In this document: in pieces, positions 17,603 to 28,604 of the stretch | How positions within the stretch are numbered: position 1 is the first letter of the stretch | How the letters are laid out: every line of letters begins with the position of its first letter | Origin: Actinomycetota bacterium | Lineage (GTDB): Bacteria; Actinomycetota; Thermoleophilia; RBG-16-64-13 | Length of the DNA: 64,000 nucleotides | Reading direction: 5' to 3' | NCBI GenBank assembly: GCA_016278725.1 | Contig: JADQBG010000013.1 | Span: 1-64,000 of the forward strand | Notes under the pieces: model-generated | Database searches by the model: none | Told to the model about the DNA's origin: nothing | Seen by the model: only the letters and a program-made list of their open reading frames with translations | Translations under genes and position numbers: made by a program

Positions 17603-18673
17603 CTAGCTCAGCGGATAGCGCCCGTATTCCTCGGCCGCTTCCATCATGGCGATCGCATTCAGCAGGGGACCGTTCGGCGGAAACTCACAGCCGGTAGACA
17701 GAATGTAGCCGCCGCCCGGGCCGAGCACCCGGATCTGCTCTTTGCACGCTTCCTTCACCTGCTCGGGAGTGTGGAGAATCATGTCCGGGCTGGGGGGCAT
17801 GTAGCCGATCAGGCAGACCTTGTCCCCGTACTTCTGCTTGAGCTCCTCGGGGGTCTTGCAGTCGTCCGGAAGCCAGGCGAAGGAGATCGCCGCGGGGTCC
17901 ATGGCCTCTATCTGGACGTCGAAGTACACGTCGTTGCCGCAGTTGTGCACGATCGGCAACATGTTGTTCTTCCGGCACCTGTCGGCGATCTCGGTGGTGA
18001 AGGGCCCCTCCATCTTCTTCCAGAGGTCCTTGCTCATGATGGATCCGGAAGCGAACAGAGTGTCCAGCACGATGGCATGGGGTCCGGTTTCGCCCAGGGC
18101 GTCGATTTGCTCGAGGAGAACGTCGGTGATGATCCGGCACGCGGCGATCACCTCGTCCGGGTGCTTCATGCAGTCCAGGAACAGCTTCTCTGCGCTCCGG
18201 AGCATGGCAAGGATGCCGAGCGGCCCGTAGAGGAAGGTCATGACCGCGGTGCGGTCGCCCATGGCCTTCATCACGCCGTCGGTGTAGCTCTGCAGGTACC
18301 GCATCCGCGTGGTCTTGCGGGGGTCGATGTGCTCGAGCTTCTTGTAGTCCTCCACCGTCTTGATGAAGGGATTGCCGTAGACCGGATGGGGCGTGTCCTC
18401 GATCGGGTACACCATCTCCGCCCCGAAGTCCGCCGCCTCGACCGAGAGGTCGACCAACAGCAGCACGCCGTCCATCCCGATGAGCTTCTCGGCATGCACC
18501 ATCGACTCGACTGCGAGGTCCGCGTCCTGGGCCCATTCCTGGTAGGTGATGCCGAGCACCCGCCGGGCCGCTGCGCAGACCAGGGGGCCTGCCGGCACGC
18601 GGTCGGCCTCCTTGAATTGCATCGCGGCGACGACTCGCTCCAATCCGGTCATTTGATCTGTTCTTATTGCCAA
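17603..18673 (-). CDS. Uroporphyrinogen-decarboxylase-fold corrinoid methyltransferase (MtaA/MtbA-like)
   Basis: A 356-residue TIM-barrel protein of the UroD superfamily. It carries the His-x-Cys...Cys zinc site of methylcobamide:thiol methyltransferases: H243-N-C245 and C329 in YILSTGCE. The roughly 84-residue spacing is close to that of MtaA. True UroD lacks this site, so methyl transfer involving a corrinoid protein is more likely than haem synthesis; the acceptor is unknown. ATG 18724, TTG 18673 and ATG 18652 are possible starts; TTG 18673 has GGGGGAG spaced 5 bases and was chosen. Last gene of the minus-strand operon; no corrinoid protein gene is in the window. Confidence 0.8.
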   Translation of the reverse strand: MAIRTDQMTGLERVVAAMQFKEADRVPAGPLVCAAARRVLGITYQEWAQDADLAVESMVHAEKLIGMDGVLLLVDLSVEAADFGAEMVYPIEDTPHPVYGNPFIKTVEDYKKLEHIDPRKTTRMRYLQSYTDGVMKAMGDRTAVMTFLYGPLGILAMLRSAEKLFLDCMKHPDEVIAACRIITDVLLEQIDALGETGPHAIVLDTLFASGSIMSKDLWKKMEGPFTTEIADRCRKNNMLPIVHNCGNDVYFDVQIEAMDPAAISFAWLPDDCKTPEELKQKYGDKVCLIGYMPPSPDMILHTPEQVKEACKEQIRVLGPGGGYILSTGCEFPPNGPLLNAIAMMEAAEEYGRYPLS

Positions 18674-18761
18674 GGTTGCTCCCCCTGTCTCGGGACGCTC
18701 CTGTTCTCGCGCCCCATGTTTCATGTCGGCCGAATCGTTCTCGTATATCTCGTGATAACTC

Positions 18762-19388
18762 CTAGCCCCTTTGTCTCTCCACCTCCTCGCTCGACTCTTC
18801 CAGCAGAGTTGAAATCAGCTCCTCGACGCCCGCTCCCGTGCGGAAGCTAACGCGAAAGAGTTGTCCCCGGGGCCTCGATCCGCGCACCTGCTTTTCGGCG
18901 GCGGCGAGGGCATCCGGTGACGCCCGGTCGGCCTTGGTGAGCGCCACCAGGTCCGCCTGTTGGAGCTGTTGTTCGGTTATGTGTGCCATGTCGGGACCGA
19001 AAGCGTCCTCCCGATTGTTGGGATCGATCAGCAGAAGGATCCGGCCGGCCCGGATCCTTCCCAAGCGATCCGCCCCATCGACCGCAGCCTTGATCTCCCT
19101 GGGGATGACGATCCCCGCGGGCTCGGCCAGGACGTACTCCAGCCCTTCCCGGTAGAGTTCGTTGAGCGCCTTTGCGAAGCTCCCGGCCTCGCTGCAGCCG
19201 ATTCACCCACCGCCGATGCTCCGGACGGGAAACCGCTCCATTACGGCTTCGGTCTCCAACTGGACTTCGCCGGTGTCGTTGATGACCACGCCCGCCCGGC
19301 CCCCGCGGCGGGAGATCTCCTCAAGCGCTGCCAGAATCGCGGTCGACTTTCCCGCGCCCAGTACCCCGATGACCGATAGGACCTTCAC
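18762..19388 (-). CDS. Candidate selenocysteine-containing G3E GTPase (in-frame TGA at codon 62)
   Basis: A 208-residue CobW/HypB-type G3E GTPase if the in-frame TGA at 19203-19205 is read through. GTG 19388 overlaps the upstream stop. Visible: P-loop GVLGAGKST (8-16), NDTGE (37-41), AEPAG, a GTPase TKAD motif and a C-terminal FRVSFRTGAGVEEL stretch. TGA is codon 62 in SIGGG-TGA-IGC, exactly where the paralogue two genes upstream has GGGCICC. Reading frame and homology continue on both sides with no other stop. On the mRNA, GAGGCC (13 nt after TGA) can pair with GGC-G-CUC, leaving a 14-nt loop that begins with GG, a possible SECIS. Pseudogene or sequencing error is the alternative. Confidence 0.65.
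19203..19205 (-). other. In-frame TGA, candidate selenocysteine codon
   Basis: The codon aligns with the first Cys of the G3E metal motif (GGGCxCC). With Sec the local sequence is U-I-G-C, a UxxC motif like those of many redox selenoproteins; the middle Cys of the usual CxCC is Gly here. selA, selB, selD and tRNA-Sec are not in this window. Confidence 0.6.
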
Positions 19389-19903
19389 CGCTGGGGATCT
19401 CCTTTGTCGGGTTCGTTCTCGAACTGCGCCTGGAGTTGGGCTATGTAATCCTCGTCGTTCGCGAAGTCGTATTCGTCGAAGTACAGATGCTCGCGCTCCT
19501 TGACCACGCGCAGCCGGTGCTTCTCGGCCAGACTGTGCGCCGCCCCCAGAGTTGCCTGTTTGACCTCCTCTTCGGAGATGCCCTGAACTATGGAGTTGAT
19601 GGCGACGTAGAGGTCCTTGGCCGGTCCGCGGAGCTCGCCGTGGCTGGCCGCCGGGTGCTTCACCCCGATGGTGTCGGCTTTGAGCGTGCCCTGTGAGCAC
19701 ACCAGGTGGGACTTGATGTGTCCCACAAAACGCGCCCCCCGGTCTACGCAGTCCCGGGCGATCTCGTCCATCATCTCGCGCAGAAGTCCGGCGATTTCCT
19801 CTGCAGGAAGGGGTTCCTCCGCGTGCAGCTTGACCGCAACCCCGTAACCGCTGACACCGTGGTCCAGGTAACAGGCGTCGTCCAACAGTCCGTCGTCGGG
19901 CAA
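19385..19903 (-). CDS. Unrecognised protein between two G3E GTPase genes
   Basis: A 172-residue soluble protein that I do not recognise. The N-terminal part (DDACYLDHGVSGYGVAVKLH) looks like a beta-hairpin start. The middle holds potential ligand or active-site residues (GARFVGHIKSHLVCSQGTLK; GVKHPAASHGE), and the C-terminus is acidic and helical. GTG 19912 and TTG 19903 are both possible; AGGGAGG spaced 8 bases favours TTG 19903. It starts at the stop of the first G3E GTPase gene, and its own stop overlaps the second, so it is embedded in the operon and probably an accessory factor. Confidence 0.7.
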   Translation of the reverse strand: MPDDGLLDDACYLDHGVSGYGVAVKLHAEEPLPAEEIAGLLREMMDEIARDCVDRGARFVGHIKSHLVCSQGTLKADTIGVKHPAASHGELRGPAKDLYVAINSIVQGISEEEVKQATLGAAHSLAEKHRLRVVKEREHLYFDEYDFANDEDYIAQLQAQFENEPDKGDPQR

Positions 19904-19904
19904 G

Positions 19905-20546
19905 TCACTCACCTCCCTGCTGGGTAACCGGTGCGATCCGGTCGAGAAGCTGTTCGATCCCCTGACCGGTGGTCGCCGAAACGGCGATGAATTCGGCGGT
20001 GGGGATGACCTCGCGGGCCGCCGCTTGGGCAAATTCCAGCTGGGCCTTATCGACCGCGTCCGCCTTGGACACCGCCACGATGTCCGCGTCAGAGAGCTGC
20101 GCCGTGACCAGCCGGCCCATGAGTTCCGGATCGAGCAGCTCTTCGGGCCGGGTCGAATCAAACAGCACGATAACGGGGCCGGCTTCCACGGTTGCCGTCC
20201 TCCCGCTCATCTCGGCGGCGGCTTTCACCTGCCGGGGAATCGCCACGCCGGTGGGTTCGACGAGGACCAGATCGGGAGCGAAGGTACGGGCCAGGTCGGA
20301 GAGGGACTTGGCGAAGGTGGTGGCCACCTCGCAGCAGATGCAGCCTCCGCCGATGTCCTTGACCTTCATCCCCGACTCCTCCATCACCTTGCCGTCCACG
20401 GGAATCTCGCCGATCTCGTTGACCACCATGGCGATCTTGAGACCCCGTTCCTCGCTGAGGCGGCGGGAGAGTTGGAGCAGCAGGGTGGTTTTCCCGCTTC
20501 CGAGAAAGCCCGCAATCTGCACTACTCGCAATTTCTGTTTGGCCAT
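19905..20546 (-). CDS. CobW/HypB-type G3E GTPase
   Basis: A 213-residue metal-chaperone GTPase. Motifs: P-loop IAGFLGSGKTT (11-21), NEIGEI (43-48), the metal motif GGGCICC with Cys 69, 71 and 72, EPTGVAIP, and SKAD. The C-terminal CobW_C domain is missing, so it consists of the G domain alone, like HypB/UreG and CooC-neighbour proteins. Such GTPases deliver or load metal into metalloenzymes. Its closest neighbours are a VWA protein upstream (8-base gap) and the unknown protein plus a second G3E GTPase downstream. Confidence 0.88.
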   Translation of the reverse strand: MAKQKLRVVQIAGFLGSGKTTLLLQLSRRLSEERGLKIAMVVNEIGEIPVDGKVMEESGMKVKDIGGGCICCEVATTFAKSLSDLARTFAPDLVLVEPTGVAIPRQVKAAAEMSGRTATVEAGPVIVLFDSTRPEELLDPELMGRLVTAQLSDADIVAVSKADAVDKAQLEFAQAAAREVIPTAEFIAVSATTGQGIEQLLDRIAPVTQQGGE

Positions 20547-20554
20547 GCGTTCTC

Positions 20555-23209
20555 CTAAGCGGTCAGGTTGCGATAGATCCGGGGCAGCCGGGTCGGCAGG
20601 TGGGTGACGTTCTGGATGACCGTGTAGTGATACTCACCGAATAGGTCGTCCAGGTAGGCCGGACCTTTGGGGTCGACCGTAATGCAGAAGGCCTTGATCC
20701 CCTTGCGTCTGGCCTCGGCGAGCGCCATGCGGACGTCTTCGGTGGCATAGCGGACGTCGCCGTACCCCAAGTCGTACGGCCGGCCGTCGCTGAGGAGAAC
20801 CAGCAGGCGCGATTCGGCGGGCTCCCCGGCCAGGTGGTCGGCCGCATGCCGCAGGGCGGCCCCCAGGCGGGTGTACTCCCGCGGCTCGACGCCGCCGATG
20901 CGTCCGGCCACGCGCTCGCCGTAGTCCTCGTCGAATTCCTTGATGGTGAAGATGTCCACCCGGTGGCGGCCCTCGCTGCTGAAGCCCATGATGGCGTAGC
21001 GGTCGTCCAGGCGGTCGATGGCATTGGAAAGCAGCACCAGCCCCTGCTTCTCGACGTCGATAATGCGCCGGCCCTCCACCTTCTCGTCCGTGGAATCGCT
21101 CATGTCGAGCAGGAAGAGCACGGCAACGTCCCGCAACTTCTTGTCCCGCCTGATGTAGAGCTGATCGCTCATGGGAGCGCCCGCCGCCCGGTCCACCAGG
21201 GCGTCGGTCAGGGCGTCCACGTCCAGCTCGTCGCCGTCCGTCTGGCGGAAGTAGCGGCGAATGCGCTCGGGTTTCAGCCGCTCGAACTGCCGCTGGATCA
21301 GATGGACTTCGCCCGAATACTCCTCGAGGGTGTCCTCGGCGAAGGCGGCGCTGCCCGGAGGCAGCCGCCGGCAGCGGACCGTGATCCAATCCTTCTTGTA
21401 GTCGTCCGCCTCGTAATCCCACTCGTCGTATTTGAAGGTGCCGTGCCCCACCTCGTCGTCCGGAGGCGGCTCGTCCGCTAGGAACGGCTCATCCTCGCTC
21501 CCGTCGGTGTCCTTGAACATGATCTCCAGTTCCGGCATCACTTCCGCCGGGTGGAAACTCTCCGGCAGTTCCAAGCTCGAGCCGGGCGTTCCCAGGGTAA
21601 TCGTAGATTCGTCCCCTTCGCCGGCCTGTCCGGCTGCCAACTGCATGCCCAGGGGAAAGTGGTCGTGGAAGGGCGGGTAGGGGACCTCGGCCAGGTCGAA
21701 ATCCTTCATCCTGCGGGGAGAGCTGCCGTTCCCCTCGAGCCAGAGTTGCTCCATTTGCTCGAAGAGCTGCGCAGCCACCGCCAAGCTATCCTCCGGACCC
21801 GTGGACAACTCGCGCAAGGTCCTGGTGGTTTCAGTTATGAGGCGCAGATGGGCGTCGTCGGCCAGCAGGCGAATGCCAAAGGGCAGGGCCACGAGTTGGG
21901 CCCGCAGCGTGGCGGGGGTGAGGCCCACCCGCCGCTCGGTTGGAGGCAAGAACTCAGCATATATTTGCCGGAGGACCAGTTCCGCATCCTGCCGGAGGCC
22001 GGGAAGGGCATGAAAGAGCAGGTAGTCGATGCGGTGGTCCTCGGCGAGCCCGACGAGGAACCGCTCCAGCCGTCTCGATGCCTCCTCGTCGCCGGGCCGT
22101 CTTTTCTCGAGCAGTGCCGCGGCCAGACGTTCATCGCGGAAGCTGCCAAACCGGCTGTGCGCCGCGGAGTGAAGCGCCACCAGTTTGTAGAGCGCGAGCG
22201 GCGAGCGGCCCAGGCAGCCAAGCGTCGGACGGATGTGAATCGCCCGGCCGTTGTTGAACGCGGGCACGTCCGGAGGGATGGTCGTGGGGTCCAGCACGTC
22301 GAACATGCTTCGCACGGTAGCCGGCTCCCCCAGAAAGGCTTCGAGCAGCAGGCTGATCTTGCCCCTGAATGCCGAGAAGGAGGTCTGCCGGCAGAGCAAC
22401 TGCACGGCTTCATGGCTGCGCTTCGAACCGTACGACATGTAGAGGACCAGGTCCTCGTCGCGGGTGGCGACTTCCAGCCCCAGGTCGACCCACTCGTGCA
22501 GTTGTTCCACCGTCATTCCCGCGAGCAGTGCCGGGAGCGCCTGGAACATCCCCTTGACGGCGTGGCGGGAACGCTCTCCCACACGCTTGCCCAGCTCCCC
22601 CAGGACGGGAAGATCCTCGCGCGCCAGCCAGTGCGATCCCTGGCCCACCGCGCTAAGGAACCCCTTGGCGGCACGCCAGTCGGTGTCGAGCAGGAGCAAG
22701 GCCTCGGCATGCCAGTCACGCAGGAAGGCGAGGTCGCGCCGGGCAAGGACGACGGGCGCCTGCTCGAAGTAGGCAGATGCCAGATCGATGTCCCGCGTCA
22801 TTTCGACTCCGCGCGCGGTGACCTCGTTGAACTGCTCGGCGAGAAGGAGCGGTGCCAAGGACCTGGTCATCTGCAGGTAGGCTTGAACCAGGCGCGGGGA
22901 GCGGCGGGCCAGGACGGGTACGGTCTCGTGCACCTTCTCCCGGATCTCGGGGTTTTGCTCGAGTGAGTCGAGGCCCTCCAGGGCATCGGCGAGAAAGGAG
23001 CGCTTGTCCCGGAGGCGTTGAGGGGTCACATAGTCGGCCAGCTCCACCCAAAGGGCGAGGTCTTCGCTGGGCATGACCTGCAGATAGCCCGCCTGCGACT
23101 CCGCGAATCGGCCTACCTCCCCTTCCAGGGAAGTGGCCCGTGCGATCAGCTCATGCCGCTCTGCCGTGGTCTCGGCGGTGCCGGTGGTGTTCTGGACGTT
23201 GCCGCTCAC
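20555..23209 (-). CDS. VWA-domain protein of the NorD/CbbO type
   Basis: An 884-residue protein with a long helical N-terminal region and a C-terminal von Willebrand A domain (from about residue 690). The MIDAS metal site is intact: DMSDST (D-x-S-x-S), the Thr in YTRLGAAL and the Asp in LLSDGRP. NorD, CbbO and chelatase subunits have this layout and act with a MoxR-type AAA+ partner to insert metals or remodel enzymes. That partner is immediately upstream (23230-24132). GTG 23209 has only a modest GGAG. No nitric oxide reductase or RuBisCO gene is nearby, so the client is different. Confidence 0.88.
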   Translation of the reverse strand: MSGNVQNTTGTAETTAERHELIARATSLEGEVGRFAESQAGYLQVMPSEDLALWVELADYVTPQRLRDKRSFLADALEGLDSLEQNPEIREKVHETVPVLARRSPRLVQAYLQMTRSLAPLLLAEQFNEVTARGVEMTRDIDLASAYFEQAPVVLARRDLAFLRDWHAEALLLLDTDWRAAKGFLSAVGQGSHWLAREDLPVLGELGKRVGERSRHAVKGMFQALPALLAGMTVEQLHEWVDLGLEVATRDEDLVLYMSYGSKRSHEAVQLLCRQTSFSAFRGKISLLLEAFLGEPATVRSMFDVLDPTTIPPDVPAFNNGRAIHIRPTLGCLGRSPLALYKLVALHSAAHSRFGSFRDERLAAALLEKRRPGDEEASRRLERFLVGLAEDHRIDYLLFHALPGLRQDAELVLRQIYAEFLPPTERRVGLTPATLRAQLVALPFGIRLLADDAHLRLITETTRTLRELSTGPEDSLAVAAQLFEQMEQLWLEGNGSSPRRMKDFDLAEVPYPPFHDHFPLGMQLAAGQAGEGDESTITLGTPGSSLELPESFHPAEVMPELEIMFKDTDGSEDEPFLADEPPPDDEVGHGTFKYDEWDYEADDYKKDWITVRCRRLPPGSAAFAEDTLEEYSGEVHLIQRQFERLKPERIRRYFRQTDGDELDVDALTDALVDRAAGAPMSDQLYIRRDKKLRDVAVLFLLDMSDSTDEKVEGRRIIDVEKQGLVLLSNAIDRLDDRYAIMGFSSEGRHRVDIFTIKEFDEDYGERVAGRIGGVEPREYTRLGAALRHAADHLAGEPAESRLLVLLSDGRPYDLGYGDVRYATEDVRMALAEARRKGIKAFCITVDPKGPAYLDDLFGEYHYTVIQNVTHLPTRLPRIYRNLTA

Positions 23210-23229
23210 GCGCTTCGACTCCGCTCCTC

Positions 23230-24132
23230 TCAGGAGGGGAAGACCGTTTCAACGAGCTCTTGCAGAGTCTCCAGCATGTCCTCATCGTCGGTAAGTGGCT
23301 TGACCATGGCCGTCTCGGCGGCTCTGCGGGCCGGGACTCCCGCCTGGATCAGCCGGGAGGCGTACACGAGCAGGCGCGTCGAAACCCCTTCTTCTAGCCC
23401 GTGGTCACGCAGGTTGCGAACCATGGCCCCCAGTTCGACCAGCTGCTCCGCCAGTTCTCGGGTGGATCCGGTCTCCTCGACCAGGATCTCGGTTTCGACC
23501 GCCTTGGGCGGGTATTCGAAATCGAGGGCCATGAAACGCTGGCGGGTGGACTGCTTCAGGTCCTTGAGGATGCTCTGATAGCCGGGATTGAAACTGACCA
23601 CCAACATGAAGTCCGGATGGGCCTCGATCAGATGCCCCTTCTTCTCGATGGGCAAGATGCGCCGGTCGTCGCCCAGCGGGTGGATGATGACGGTCGTGTC
23701 CTTGCGCGCCTCGACCAGCTCGTCCAGATAGCAGATGGCGCCGTGGCGGACGGCCGCGGTCAGGGGCCCGTCGATCCACTTGGTCTCGTTCCCGATGAAG
23801 AGGTACCGGCCGACCAGATCGCTCGCCGTTAGGTCCTCGTGGCAGGCCACCGTCACCAGAGGGAGATCGAGCTTAAAGGCCATGTGCTCCAGGAAACGGG
23901 TCTTACCGCTACCGGTGGGCCCTTTGAGCATCACCGGCAGCTTGAGTTCGTGCGCCCGCTCGAATAACTCCACTTCGTCCCGGATGGGGCGGTAGTAGGG
24001 CTCCTCGGCGAGCCGGTAGTCCTCGAGGGAGAGTTCTTGCCCGGGGTGCAGACGTGTCTTCACGAAATTCACCAGCCCGTTGGGGGAGGACGGGGACAGT
24101 TGCTCGCATAAATGGCGCAGAGAAAACGCCAC
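23230..24132 (-). CDS. MoxR-family AAA+ ATPase (NorQ/CbbQ-like)
   Basis: A 300-residue AAA+ ATPase. Walker A is [16 protein letters not shown] (about 75-90) and Walker B is [19 protein letters not shown] supplies the sensor-1/MoxR signature. An N-terminal extension of about 60 residues precedes the ATPase. It forms the hexameric motor that would work with the adjacent VWA protein. GTG 24132 is preceded by TGGAG and by a promoter-like element. First gene of the six-gene minus-strand operon that ends with the MtaA-like methyltransferase. Confidence 0.9.
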
Positions 24133-24320: not shown

Positions 24321-25613
24321 CTAGAGCCGGGGAGCGGTGATCATGTCTCTATCCGGGACCCGAGGAACCGTCACCGTTCCGTCGGTGAGCAGCACGACGC
24401 TGGCCGAAGGACCCTTACGGAAGAGGGCCGCATCCACGGCCTTCTGCACGTCGGCGAAAGGCCGGATGAAGGCGGCCTCCATGTCCTCCGGAGGGATGCT
24501 GGTGACTCCCCAGATCTCAGCCTTCTTGGAGATGTGCGCCAGCCGCGCCGCCTTGTGGTAGCCCAGCACATACTCGCCCTTGATCGAATCGAGCACCGCC
24601 TGCGGGGAGGGCTGCTCCGCCAGGAGGTTGAAGAAGGTCTCGTCACCGATCCCGTGGCGGCATTTGCTCACCAGGATGAGAATGCCGTTTTCCTTGAGCA
24701 TGAGGGAGCCGTTCTCGATCGCCTTCTGCGACTGATAGAGGTCGTAGTCCATTGGATACGAAGCCACGGTGATGACGATGTCGGCGGCCTCGGGGACGTC
24801 GACCACATAGTGCATGTCCGCGTGCTCCACGGCATCCGCGAAGCTCTTCTCCAACTCGCCCGCGTGCACGGAGTGAATGCGGTGCTGCCGGTCTAGGACC
24901 ATCTGGATGGAGAAGATGGGCATGTTCCCGGTCTTCTCGCGGAAGATGGCGATACTTTCCACCATGTCTTCGTGAACGGGGTTGCCCTCGAGCGACAGGA
25001 TCTCGGCCTCCGGTTCGAGGGCAAGCCGGTGGTTTGCCTGCACCGTCTCGAAGCCGGCGACGCCCGGGAAGATCGATTTGCGTCCGCCGGTGTACCCCGC
25101 GAAGTAGTGGGGCTCCACCGAGTTGACCAGCACCAGCCTCTCCGCCTCGAGCACGCGGCGGTTGATCCAGAGCGGTACTCCTCGCGAGGTCTCGCCCAGG
25201 TACTCGAGCTCCTCCTTGTTGCGGGCGTCGTGCGCCCAGACGTGGCCGTACCAGTGAGTGCGCACAACGCGGCCCAGGATCTGCTCGAGCTCCTCCTCGC
25301 TCGGCGGCTGGTGGGTGCCGGTGGCTACCAGGAAATCGACGTCGTAGCCCTCGAGGTCCTCTTTGAGAATCTCGAGCAGTTTGGGCGTTGGGGTGGGCCG
25401 AGTGGCGTCGTTGACGATGAAGAGGATCTTGCCGTCGGAAGCGGCCAGGAACTCGGGAAAACTAGGCTGACCGTTGTGGGAGTCGAGAATCGAGTGCAGA
25501 TGGCCGGCCTCTTCGCGAACTCTTACCGTCTTGGGTTCGATGATGCTGCCCAGGCGGCGGCGATCGATCTTCAGCGGAACCGTTCCCATGTCCCAGCGGA
25601 CGTCTATGTACAT
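24321..25613 (-). CDS. larA: LarA-family nickel-dependent lactate racemase
   Basis: A 430-residue protein of the LarA (DUF2088) family, which racemises lactate or related 2-hydroxyacids with a nickel-pincer cofactor. Seen: NDATRPTP and VATGTHQPP in the N-terminal domain, and EPHYFAGYTGGRKSIFPGVA, with the Lys that attaches the pincer. Length is typical. larB, larC and larE, needed to make the cofactor, are not in the window. The upstream gene on the same strand encodes a D-lactate-dehydrogenase-like protein, which supports lactate as the substrate, although LarA paralogues with other substrates exist. Confidence 0.88.
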   Translation of the reverse strand: MYIDVRWDMGTVPLKIDRRRLGSIIEPKTVRVREEAGHLHSILDSHNGQPSFPEFLAASDGKILFIVNDATRPTPTPKLLEILKEDLEGYDVDFLVATGTHQPPSEEELEQILGRVVRTHWYGHVWAHDARNKEELEYLGETSRGVPLWINRRVLEAERLVLVNSVEPHYFAGYTGGRKSIFPGVAGFETVQANHRLALEPEAEILSLEGNPVHEDMVESIAIFREKTGNMPIFSIQMVLDRQHRIHSVHAGELEKSFADAVEHADMHYVVDVPEAADIVITVASYPMDYDLYQSQKAIENGSLMLKENGILILVSKCRHGIGDETFFNLLAEQPSPQAVLDSIKGEYVLGYHKAARLAHISKKAEIWGVTSIPPEDMEAAFIRPFADVQKAVDAALFRKGPSASVVLLTDGTVTVPRVPDRDMITAPRL

Positions 25614-25667
25614 CGTCTCGCCCCTTCGCTCATTGTCATCGTTCTGGCTCCCCTTGCTGCGCCCGCG

Positions 25668-28604
25668 CTAGTGGTCCTGCTCGAGACCGTAGGCCCGGCA
25701 GAGGATCTTCGCCGGATGAATCGCCTTCAGACCCGTGCCGTCTTCCAGCTGCATCCGGCAGGTGCTGCACTCGGTCAGGATCAACTCGGGTTGGACCTGG
25801 GCCACCCGATCAAACAGGGGGCGGCCGCAGTCCATCGAGAGTTCGTAGGTTTCCTTCTTCATACCGAAGGTCCCCGCCATGCCGCAGCAGCCGGCGTTGA
25901 GATCGACGACCTCGAGTCCCGGCACCTCCCGCAACAGATCGAGGAAGGCGGCTCCGGGCTTCTGGACCTTCAGGTGACAGGGCAGATGGTAGGCGACCTT
26001 CATCTCCACCCGGCGGGGCTCGGGCGACCGTTCGGGATGGTCCGCCCGGAATTTGGCCAGGAACTCGCCCAGGTCGCGCGTGGCGGCGGCCACCACGGCC
26101 GCCGCCTGTCCCTGCGCGCTCTCGGTGCCCAGATAGTCGTTGTAGTGCTCCTTGAAGGCAAGTGTGGCCGTGGGTTCGCCGCTCACCAGAAGGGCGCCGC
26201 CCTCGACGGCGGCCTTGGCCCCGCTCACATTTCGGGCTGCGGCCTCCCACGCCTTCTCCCGGTAGCCGTAGAGCATTTCCGGGATCCCGCTCGACTGTTG
26301 GTCGGGGAAGGTCACCTCGATCCCGTGGGCGAGCAGCAATGCCTCCATGCACTCCGCCAACGAAGGATCGTGGTAGTTGGCGTAGAGATCGTAGAAGAAG
26401 GCCACCGAGGCGGGCGGTGCCGCCTCGGCTCGAGGGAAGGCCTTTCCCAGCGCGCCGGCGTCCCGTTCTTCGAGTCGCTGGGCGAAGGTCTTGGCCGCAA
26501 AAGGCGGCATGGTGCGCCGGCGGTCTATTCCGGTAACGCCCTCGGCCATCTTCCGCAGGAACTTCAGGTTGGCCAGCCGCCCCGAGACTGCTGCAGTGCT
26601 GCTTCCCGTCTTGGAGAGGCGTTCCGGGTCGCCGAGCAGCCGGTCGGTGGCGCTGCCGGAATGCGCGTCACGGTAGCGCGCCTTGGCTTCCAACATCAGC
26701 TTGGGGATGTTGACGTTGGAAGGGCACTCCACAGCGCACATTCCACACTCGATGCAGTAATCGGTTATCAGCTTGAGCTCTTCACCCGCGTGCGCGGTCT
26801 TGGGGTCGAGCCGGCCGGAGAGAATGTTCCGCAGCACGTTGGCCTTGGCCCGGGGGGAGGCGTGCTCCCGCTTGAGCGCCTTGTAGGTGGGGCACATGGT
26901 GGTCGCCACCAAGCTCTTGCACTGGGCGCACCCGTGGCACTTCTCCACCTCGGCCTGGTAGGCGCCTTCCCCCCAGGAGAGCACGGTGCTCTGGTCGAAT
27001 GTCCAATAGTCCGCGCCGTAACGCATGTTCTGAGCGGCGCCGCCGCTCATGCCCGGTTGCAGGATCTTCTTGCCGGGGTTCATGATGCCCGCCGGGTCGA
27101 GGGCTTCCTTGACCTCTTGGAACACGCCGTACACCTCTTCGCCGTAAACCATCGGGATCAGCGGCGTGCGCACCAATCCGTCGCCGTGCTCGCCCGAGGG
27201 CGTGCCGCGCAGCTCCAGCACCATCTCGACGACTTCGTCCAGCAGGCGCTGCATTCTGGCCAGGTCCTTCGCGTCCTTGAGATCGAGCAGCGGCCGGGTG
27301 TGGACGTTGCCGTCGCCGGCGTGCCCGTACATGATCCCCGGGATGTCCATTCCCTTGAGAATGCCGTCCAGGTTCTCCATATAGTCGGCCAACACCGAGG
27401 GGTGAATGGTGACGTCCTCGATCACCTCGGCGATCCGCTTGGGCCCGGGGAGCTTCTGCAGCAGGGGGACGGCCGTTTTGCGCACCTGCCAGAGCTCCTC
27501 CTGCTCCGCGGGATCGAGGGCCCGCTTGACCTCGAGGGCGGGCCCTCCGGCAAGCAGGCTTTCCAGGGAGCGCAGGCTCTCGTCGAGCTCGTCGGTGTCC
27601 GCGCCTTCGAATTCGATCAGTAGCGCGGTGTTGGCGCCCGGAGGCAGCATGGCGTCCAGCTTGGGCAGTTGCGTGCGGACGAAGGTCAGGAAGTTGGAAT
27701 CCATTATCTCGAGCGAAGTGGGCTTGAGATCCAGAATGGGGAAGACGGCCTCGCCCGCCGCCCTCACGGCCGGGAAGTAGGCCATGGCGATGGCGCGCTT
27801 GCCGGGCAGGGGCACGAGGTTGAGGGTGGCCTCGGCGATCAGGCCCAGACTGCCCTCGGAGCCGACGAATAGCTTCTGCAGGTTGACTCGGCCGTCCTCG
27901 ATCACCGTCTCGAGCCGGTAGCCGCTGGCGTTCTTCATCACGTGCGGTTGGGCTCGGCGAATAGCCTCGCCCTTGCTCTCGAGCAGCGGCAGGATCCGGC
28001 TGAAGGCGCGGGCGGGGCCACCCGATCCACCGACCAGTTTCTCCAGATCACCGTTGCGCGCGACCGTCTTGGCCTCGAAGAGTTCGCCGCCGCTCAGGGC
28101 CATGCGCAAACCGAGCACGTGGTCGATGGTCATCCCGTATGCGACCGAGCGCGAGCCCGAGGAGTTATTCGCCATCATGCCGCCGAGCGTGCAGTAGTTC
28201 TCGCTCGAGGGGTTGGGCGCGAAGAAGCGGCCGTAAGCTTTGACGTGCGCGTTGAGCTGGCCCATGACCACACCCGGCTGCACCCGCGCCCAGGAGCCGT
28301 CCTCGGCCACCTCCAGGATCTTGTTCATGTGGCGGGTGAAGTCGACCTGCAGCCCGGGACCCACCGCCGCCCCGGCCAGACCAGAACCCGCCCCGCGGGG
28401 CACGAGCGGCACGCCGTTCTCGGTGGCGTAGGCGACCAGCGCGAGGAGATCCTCGGTGTCGCGCGGCGACACCACCCCAACCGGGGTGATCTGGTAAAGC
28501 CCCGCATCGGTGGCGTAGAGGTGACGGGTGAAGCTGTCGAACTCGACGTCGCCACGAAGCTGTCGACGCAGGTCGCGCTCGAGAGCATTGATGCTGGGTC
28601 TCAT
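25668..28604 (-). CDS. FAD-linked D-2-hydroxyacid (D-lactate/glycolate) dehydrogenase with C-terminal Fe-S/CCG domains
   Basis: A 978-residue fusion of a GlcD-like flavoprotein and a GlcF-like iron-sulfur protein. The N-terminal PCMH-type FAD domain contains PLVPRGAGSGLAGAAVGPG and NNSSGSRSVAYG. The middle carries two Cys clusters, CHGCAQCKSLVATTMCP and CIECGMCAVECPSN. The C-terminus has cysteine-rich domains (CHLK...AGCCGMAGTFGM), as in GlcF, LutA and heterodisulfide reductase. It probably oxidises D-lactate and passes electrons to quinone or an electron-transfer flavoprotein. larA follows on the same strand 54 bases downstream. Confidence 0.9.
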   Translation of the reverse strand: MRPSINALERDLRRQLRGDVEFDSFTRHLYATDAGLYQITPVGVVSPRDTEDLLALVAYATENGVPLVPRGAGSGLAGAAVGPGLQVDFTRHMNKILEVAEDGSWARVQPGVVMGQLNAHVKAYGRFFAPNPSSENYCTLGGMMANNSSGSRSVAYGMTIDHVLGLRMALSGGELFEAKTVARNGDLEKLVGGSGGPARAFSRILPLLESKGEAIRRAQPHVMKNASGYRLETVIEDGRVNLQKLFVGSEGSLGLIAEATLNLVPLPGKRAIAMAYFPAVRAAGEAVFPILDLKPTSLEIMDSNFLTFVRTQLPKLDAMLPPGANTALLIEFEGADTDELDESLRSLESLLAGGPALEVKRALDPAEQEELWQVRKTAVPLLQKLPGPKRIAEVIEDVTIHPSVLADYMENLDGILKGMDIPGIMYGHAGDGNVHTRPLLDLKDAKDLARMQRLLDEVVEMVLELRGTPSGEHGDGLVRTPLIPMVYGEEVYGVFQEVKEALDPAGIMNPGKKILQPGMSGGAAQNMRYGADYWTFDQSTVLSWGEGAYQAEVEKCHGCAQCKSLVATTMCPTYKALKREHASPRAKANVLRNILSGRLDPKTAHAGEELKLITDYCIECGMCAVECPSNVNIPKLMLEAKARYRDAHSGSATDRLLGDPERLSKTGSSTAAVSGRLANLKFLRKMAEGVTGIDRRRTMPPFAAKTFAQRLEERDAGALGKAFPRAEAAPPASVAFFYDLYANYHDPSLAECMEALLLAHGIEVTFPDQQSSGIPEMLYGYREKAWEAAARNVSGAKAAVEGGALLVSGEPTATLAFKEHYNDYLGTESAQGQAAAVVAAATRDLGEFLAKFRADHPERSPEPRRVEMKVAYHLPCHLKVQKPGAAFLDLLREVPGLEVVDLNAGCCGMAGTFGMKKETYELSMDCGRPLFDRVAQVQPELILTECSTCRMQLEDGTGLKAIHPAKILCRAYGLEQDH

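Follow-up and report, generated by a model that had tools for sequence, protein, structure and literature searches.

The G3E (CobW/HypB/UreG) GTPases include the COG0523 metal chaperones, such as CobW, YeiR, YjiA and ZigA, which are characterized by a CxCC motif. CobW shows GTP-dependent binding of Co(II) at a thiol-rich tetrahedral site, probably via this motif (PMC7895991). A CobW-related selenoprotein with a UxxC motif, where U denotes selenocysteine (Sec), is already catalogued (review PMC13188914, citing Zhang and Gladyshev, 2007), and the corresponding NCBIfam equivalog family is NF041053, with a curated cut-off of 180 bits. Other related systems are UreG, HypB and MeaB, all single-domain GTPases whose clients are metallo- or B12 enzymes, and the CbbQ/NorQ-type systems, in which a MoxR-type AAA ATPase is paired with a protein carrying a vWA domain. 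Such MoxR/vWA pairs serve unrelated enzymes too.

The locus analyzed here lies in a 64,000-nucleotide stretch of actinobacterial DNA (the window) within contig C20 of a 2.7-Mb genome that is 99.65% complete, and its features are listed in Table 1. Its Sec GTPase resembles the COG0523 chaperones in the G3E fold, in the nucleotide motifs and in the position of U62, which falls on the first Cys of CxCC. However, it has Sec for that Cys and Gly for the second, and it is a bare GTPase domain with no CobW_C fused to it; the motif is U-x-G-C rather than CxCC in all six Sec GTPases found. The solved folds nearest to its predicted structure in a Foldseek search are UreG, HypB and MeaB, whereas these have another metal motif, no Sec and different client enzymes. 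With NF041053 it shares a short CobW-like GTPase domain, Sec in UxxC and a full-length profile match, although the proteins described here score below the cut-off, group with their own Cys twin, are actinobacterial and are encoded in a tandem Sec/Cys arrangement with the GHIK protein and an AAA/vWA pair. Finally, as in the CbbQ/NorQ-type systems, each copy of the unit places an AAA_5 plus CbbQ_C protein next to one with a vWA domain, but here the pair is tied to two G3E GTPases and the GHIK protein.

Table 1. Features of the five-gene unit and its flank in the window.
Feature	Coordinates	Strand	Remarks
MoxR/CbbQ/NorQ-type AAA ATPase	23230..24132	-	start of the five-gene unit
884-aa protein	20555..23209	-	C-terminal vWA domain
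G3E GTPase, Cys twin	19905..20546	-	adjoining paralogue of the Sec GTPase; ordinary CICC
GHIK protein	19385..19912	-	175 aa; predicted ferredoxin-like fold
G3E (CobW/HypB/UreG) GTPase, very probable selenoprotein (Sec GTPase)	18762..19388	-	208 aa; motif IGGG-U-IGC
TGA codon, very probably read as selenocysteine (U62)	19203..19205	-	first Cys position of CxCC
Putative bSECIS hairpin, GCGAGGC-CGGGA-GCTTCGC	19174..19192	-	+11 to +29; fits published bSECIS model; conserved in six genomes
URO-D family methyltransferase	17603..18724	-	MtaA/CmuA-like; below NCBIfam cut-offs

The apparent stop codon in the last gene of the unit very probably encodes selenocysteine, as judged from sequence comparison. 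The minus-strand frame runs from GTG at 19388 to TAG at 18762 and contains one internal TGA only, at residue 62 (19205-19203), exactly as given in an earlier sequence-only reading of this DNA. The GTG start is preceded by GGAG and overlaps the TGA stop of the gene before it within the sequence GTGA, as is seen where the translation of operon genes is coupled. The assignment of the product to the G3E GTPases in that reading is borne out by the Pfam model cobW (PF02492), which matches residues 3-176 with 83 bits against a gathering score of 20.7. Likewise, the reported homology to the neighbouring GTPase runs through the TGA, at about 36% identity over 197 residues, and residue 62 pairs with the first Cys of CICC in E. 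coli YjiA, so that Sec at this position yields the proposed UxxC. The Cys twin has CICC where the Sec GTPase has U-I-G-C; therefore, the middle Cys has been lost and replaced by Gly. A standard annotation that reads the TGA as a stop would present this as a GTPase gene that is broken or cut short.

All six genomes that carry the Sec GTPase have the genes in the order MoxR-type AAA, vWA protein, Cys GTPase, GHIK protein and Sec GTPase. The MoxR/CbbQ-type AAA and vWA genes (20555-24132) are always upstream of both GTPase genes. The GHIK copies are 71-91% identical to that of the window, far more conserved than the Sec GTPase, and eleven Cys/His residues are invariant in their six-genome alignment. 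Searches of Pfam, NCBIfam and PHROGs with the GHIK protein gave no credible match. Its structural model (pLDDT 74) retrieves ferredoxin-like folds; the highest-ranking Foldseek matches include YjiA, and they are weak (best E 1.4e-3, Z < 9). Distant GHIK homologues directly adjoin other G3E GTPases; one genome (locus L143) has a natural 343-aa GTPase-GHIK fusion; and a homologue on contig C7 of the window's own genome (L136) ends in a long His-rich tail. The GHIK protein therefore looks like a C-terminal partner domain that has become separated from a CobW-like chaperone, seemingly a split domain not described before. Near the five-gene unit, or near related GTPase-GHIK pairs, are genes for URO-D methyltransferases, MtrH, RACo, a pterin-binding methyltransferase, DUF1638 and DGC, and these neighbours point to a context of corrinoid methyl transfer. 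In addition, another G3E GTPase, with CobW_C, is located directly beside a RACo-like activator and close to a URO-D methyltransferase elsewhere in this genome (L138:651-7132; G000:C18). The finding also defines an uncharacterised AAA, vWA, Cys GTPase, GHIK and Sec GTPase unit near methyl-transfer genes.

What might this unit do? The Sec GTPase may be a GTP-gated metallochaperone, a proposal that we consider about evenly balanced between right and wrong. By analogy with CobW, it would hold its metal through the Se of U62 (as selenolate), the S of Cys65 and other ligands; it would work with the Cys twin, which keeps the standard CICC motif, with the GHIK protein and with the MoxR/vWA ATPase; and the metal (Co, Zn or Ni) would be loaded into the corrinoid/URO-D methyltransferases encoded nearby. 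Sec would be a softer and more easily oxidised ligand, which could change the metal preference or allow redox-triggered release. Alternatively, the role of the protein may be mainly redox, with the UxxC forming a selenenyl-sulfide/thiol pair that reactivates an oxidised corrinoid protein or methyltransferase instead of delivering metal. UxxC is the classic redox motif; besides, a three-thiolate site is weaker once the middle Cys is gone, and genes for RACo reductive activators occur in these neighbourhoods. However, the GTPase motifs are kept in the Sec GTPases, the Sec site coincides with the established metal motif of COG0523, and the His-rich-tailed GHIK homologue suggests metal handling, so that a mainly redox role appears somewhat unlikely. 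The majority of selenoproteins catalogued so far are regarded as redox proteins. A G3E GTPase with Sec at its metal site and an adjacent Cys paralogue, with shared ancestry and a shared operon, make a natural pair for testing the role of selenium in metal handling.

As for origin, the sequences indicate that the Sec GTPase gene arose by duplication and shares its ancestry with the CICC GTPase gene next to it. Among 61 GTPases placed in a tree, the six with Sec fall into one group (100/100), which is joined to the six Cys twins (100/100); the tree is compatible with a position of this group beside the twins and with one inside them. A speculative scenario, somewhat less likely than not, is that this actinobacterial lineage acquired Sec independently, once a CxCC GTPase had been duplicated in tandem. 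The result would be a split metallochaperone of two GTPases, one with Cys and one with Sec, that includes a GHIK subunit and an AAA/vWA insertase and is devoted to corrinoid methyl transfer. Selenium would then tune a metal delivery step.

Could the gene instead be an ordinary NF041053 member, acquired by horizontal transfer? The family is the same, the UxxC is present (U62-I-G-C65), and NF041053 is the best NCBIfam match of the window's protein. However, that match reaches 103.8 bits, and all six Sec GTPases score 92-126 bits against the cut-off of 180; by that test they are therefore not members, but they are proteins of the same kind. Their Cys twins reach similar or better scores (117-137 bits). 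The tree, which contains no NF041053 reference member, joins the Sec clade to its own twin, and among 396 Actinomycetota genomes no NF041053 member above the cut-off was found. Consequently, horizontal spread of an ordinary NF041053 member seems unlikely. When 14 control genomes were searched with NF041053, only M. acetivorans matched at E<=1e-30, below the cut-off, a match that fits a link to methyl-transfer metabolism. The sequence-only reading called the gene a candidate new selenoprotein. The conserved TGA and the decoding machinery uphold 'selenoprotein', but 'new' is not supported in its broad sense, because the CobW-related UxxC family is already catalogued, and as a whole that reading is partly supported. 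Of the three outcomes that it named as refuting, none was encountered in so far as they could be checked; as to a sequencing error, six independent genomes agree on the TGA. New here are the clade in actinobacteria, the tandem arrangement of a Sec and a Cys GTPase, the GHIK protein and the unit with AAA and vWA genes, for none of which did a literature search of limited extent find a description.

The machinery that the selenoprotein reading calls for is present. The window's genome has a tRNA-Sec (74.9 bits, anticodon TCA, i.e., UCA), a SelA of 556 bits and a SelB over its cut-off, the latter two encoded by adjacent genes on contig C18. SelA, SelB and SelD are above their cut-offs in all six Sec GTPase genomes. 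The selD gene has an in-frame TGA of its own in each of the six (G000:C26:106754-107677 in the window's genome), and SelD is thus likely itself a selenoprotein in this genome and its five relatives. A TGA that lies so clearly within a coding frame might also be read as Trp or another ordinary residue, by reassignment or general readthrough. This is very improbable, since TGA is the stop of 20 of the 55 gene calls of a crude caller in the window, as well as of the GHIK gene, and terminates the Sec GTPase gene itself in the orthologue genomes G006, G012 and G004; moreover, the paralogues have Cys in this column and the genome has the Sec machinery.

The orthologues were sought in the window's genome and 60 relatives. 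Six genomes, including the window's, have a Sec GTPase, each with exactly one TGA, in the same column in all six. The other five proteins are 42-83% identical to that of the window. These genomes represent four genera of one actinobacterial family, 6 of the 18 genomes examined of that family. Profile searches across the class (399 genomes) and the phylum (396 genomes) revealed no TGA-bearing copy beyond the six; they ranked the six Sec GTPases first, then their own Cys twins, and then much weaker GTPases. A scan of genome contigs gave a single match, a congener in an 'Actinomycetes bacterium' metagenome assembly (Actinomycetota), and the viral contigs and plasmids searched held no useful relatives. 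In all 15 pairs of the six orthologues pN is lower than pS in the part that precedes the TGA and in the part that follows it, with dN/dS of 0.11-0.60; that is, purifying selection acts on both sides. A stop in a duplicated copy would be an ordinary outcome and the Sec group has a long branch, with 2.15 changes per column, but a decaying pseudogene, with the TGA a true nonsense mutation, is extremely improbable given an identical TGA in genomes down to 42% identity, 139-158 downstream codons free of any other disruption and this selection. It should be noted that a scan of the whole window for conserved TGA codons against the congener alone was dropped as non-discriminating. In that comparison of the two closest genomes, other window frames, mostly antisense, also pass the TGA and pN/pS filter; therefore, the weight is placed on the six divergent genomes and on the two-sided homology.

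SelB and tRNA-Sec would decode UGA62 with the aid of the hairpin listed in Table 1. The stem proposed in the sequence-only reading, GAGGCC/GGCGCTC, was discarded: its 14-nt loop exceeds the 3-9 nt of the published bSECIS model (PMC13188914), and it shows no compensatory change. The hairpin that replaces it fits the constraints of that model, with a 7-bp stem, a 5-nt loop (CGGGA) with G second, an apical loop 17 nt past the UGA and a core energy of -11.1 kcal/mol in the window; the corresponding values for orthologue G012 are -7.3 for the 24-nt core and -15.9 for 45 nt. The folding energy lies within the ordinary range for a sequence so rich in G+C (z -0.49), an Rfam search of the region gave no match, and the covariation is modest, with two pairs changed on both sides, a count reached by 262 of 500 shuffles (the covariation score by 55 of 500). 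None of the six genomes varies in the loop nucleotides or in the codons GCC GGG AGC TTC. Among invariant residues, a single codon is used at 6 of 8 in codons +1 to +9 versus 12 of 49 elsewhere (P=0.009).

Elsewhere in the window, at 24321-28604, a LarA-like nickel-pincer racemase (best match NF052593, 347 bits against a cut-off of 500) is encoded beside a 978-aa FAD/Fe-S/CCG oxidase; these are perhaps a 2-hydroxyacid racemase and dehydrogenase pair.
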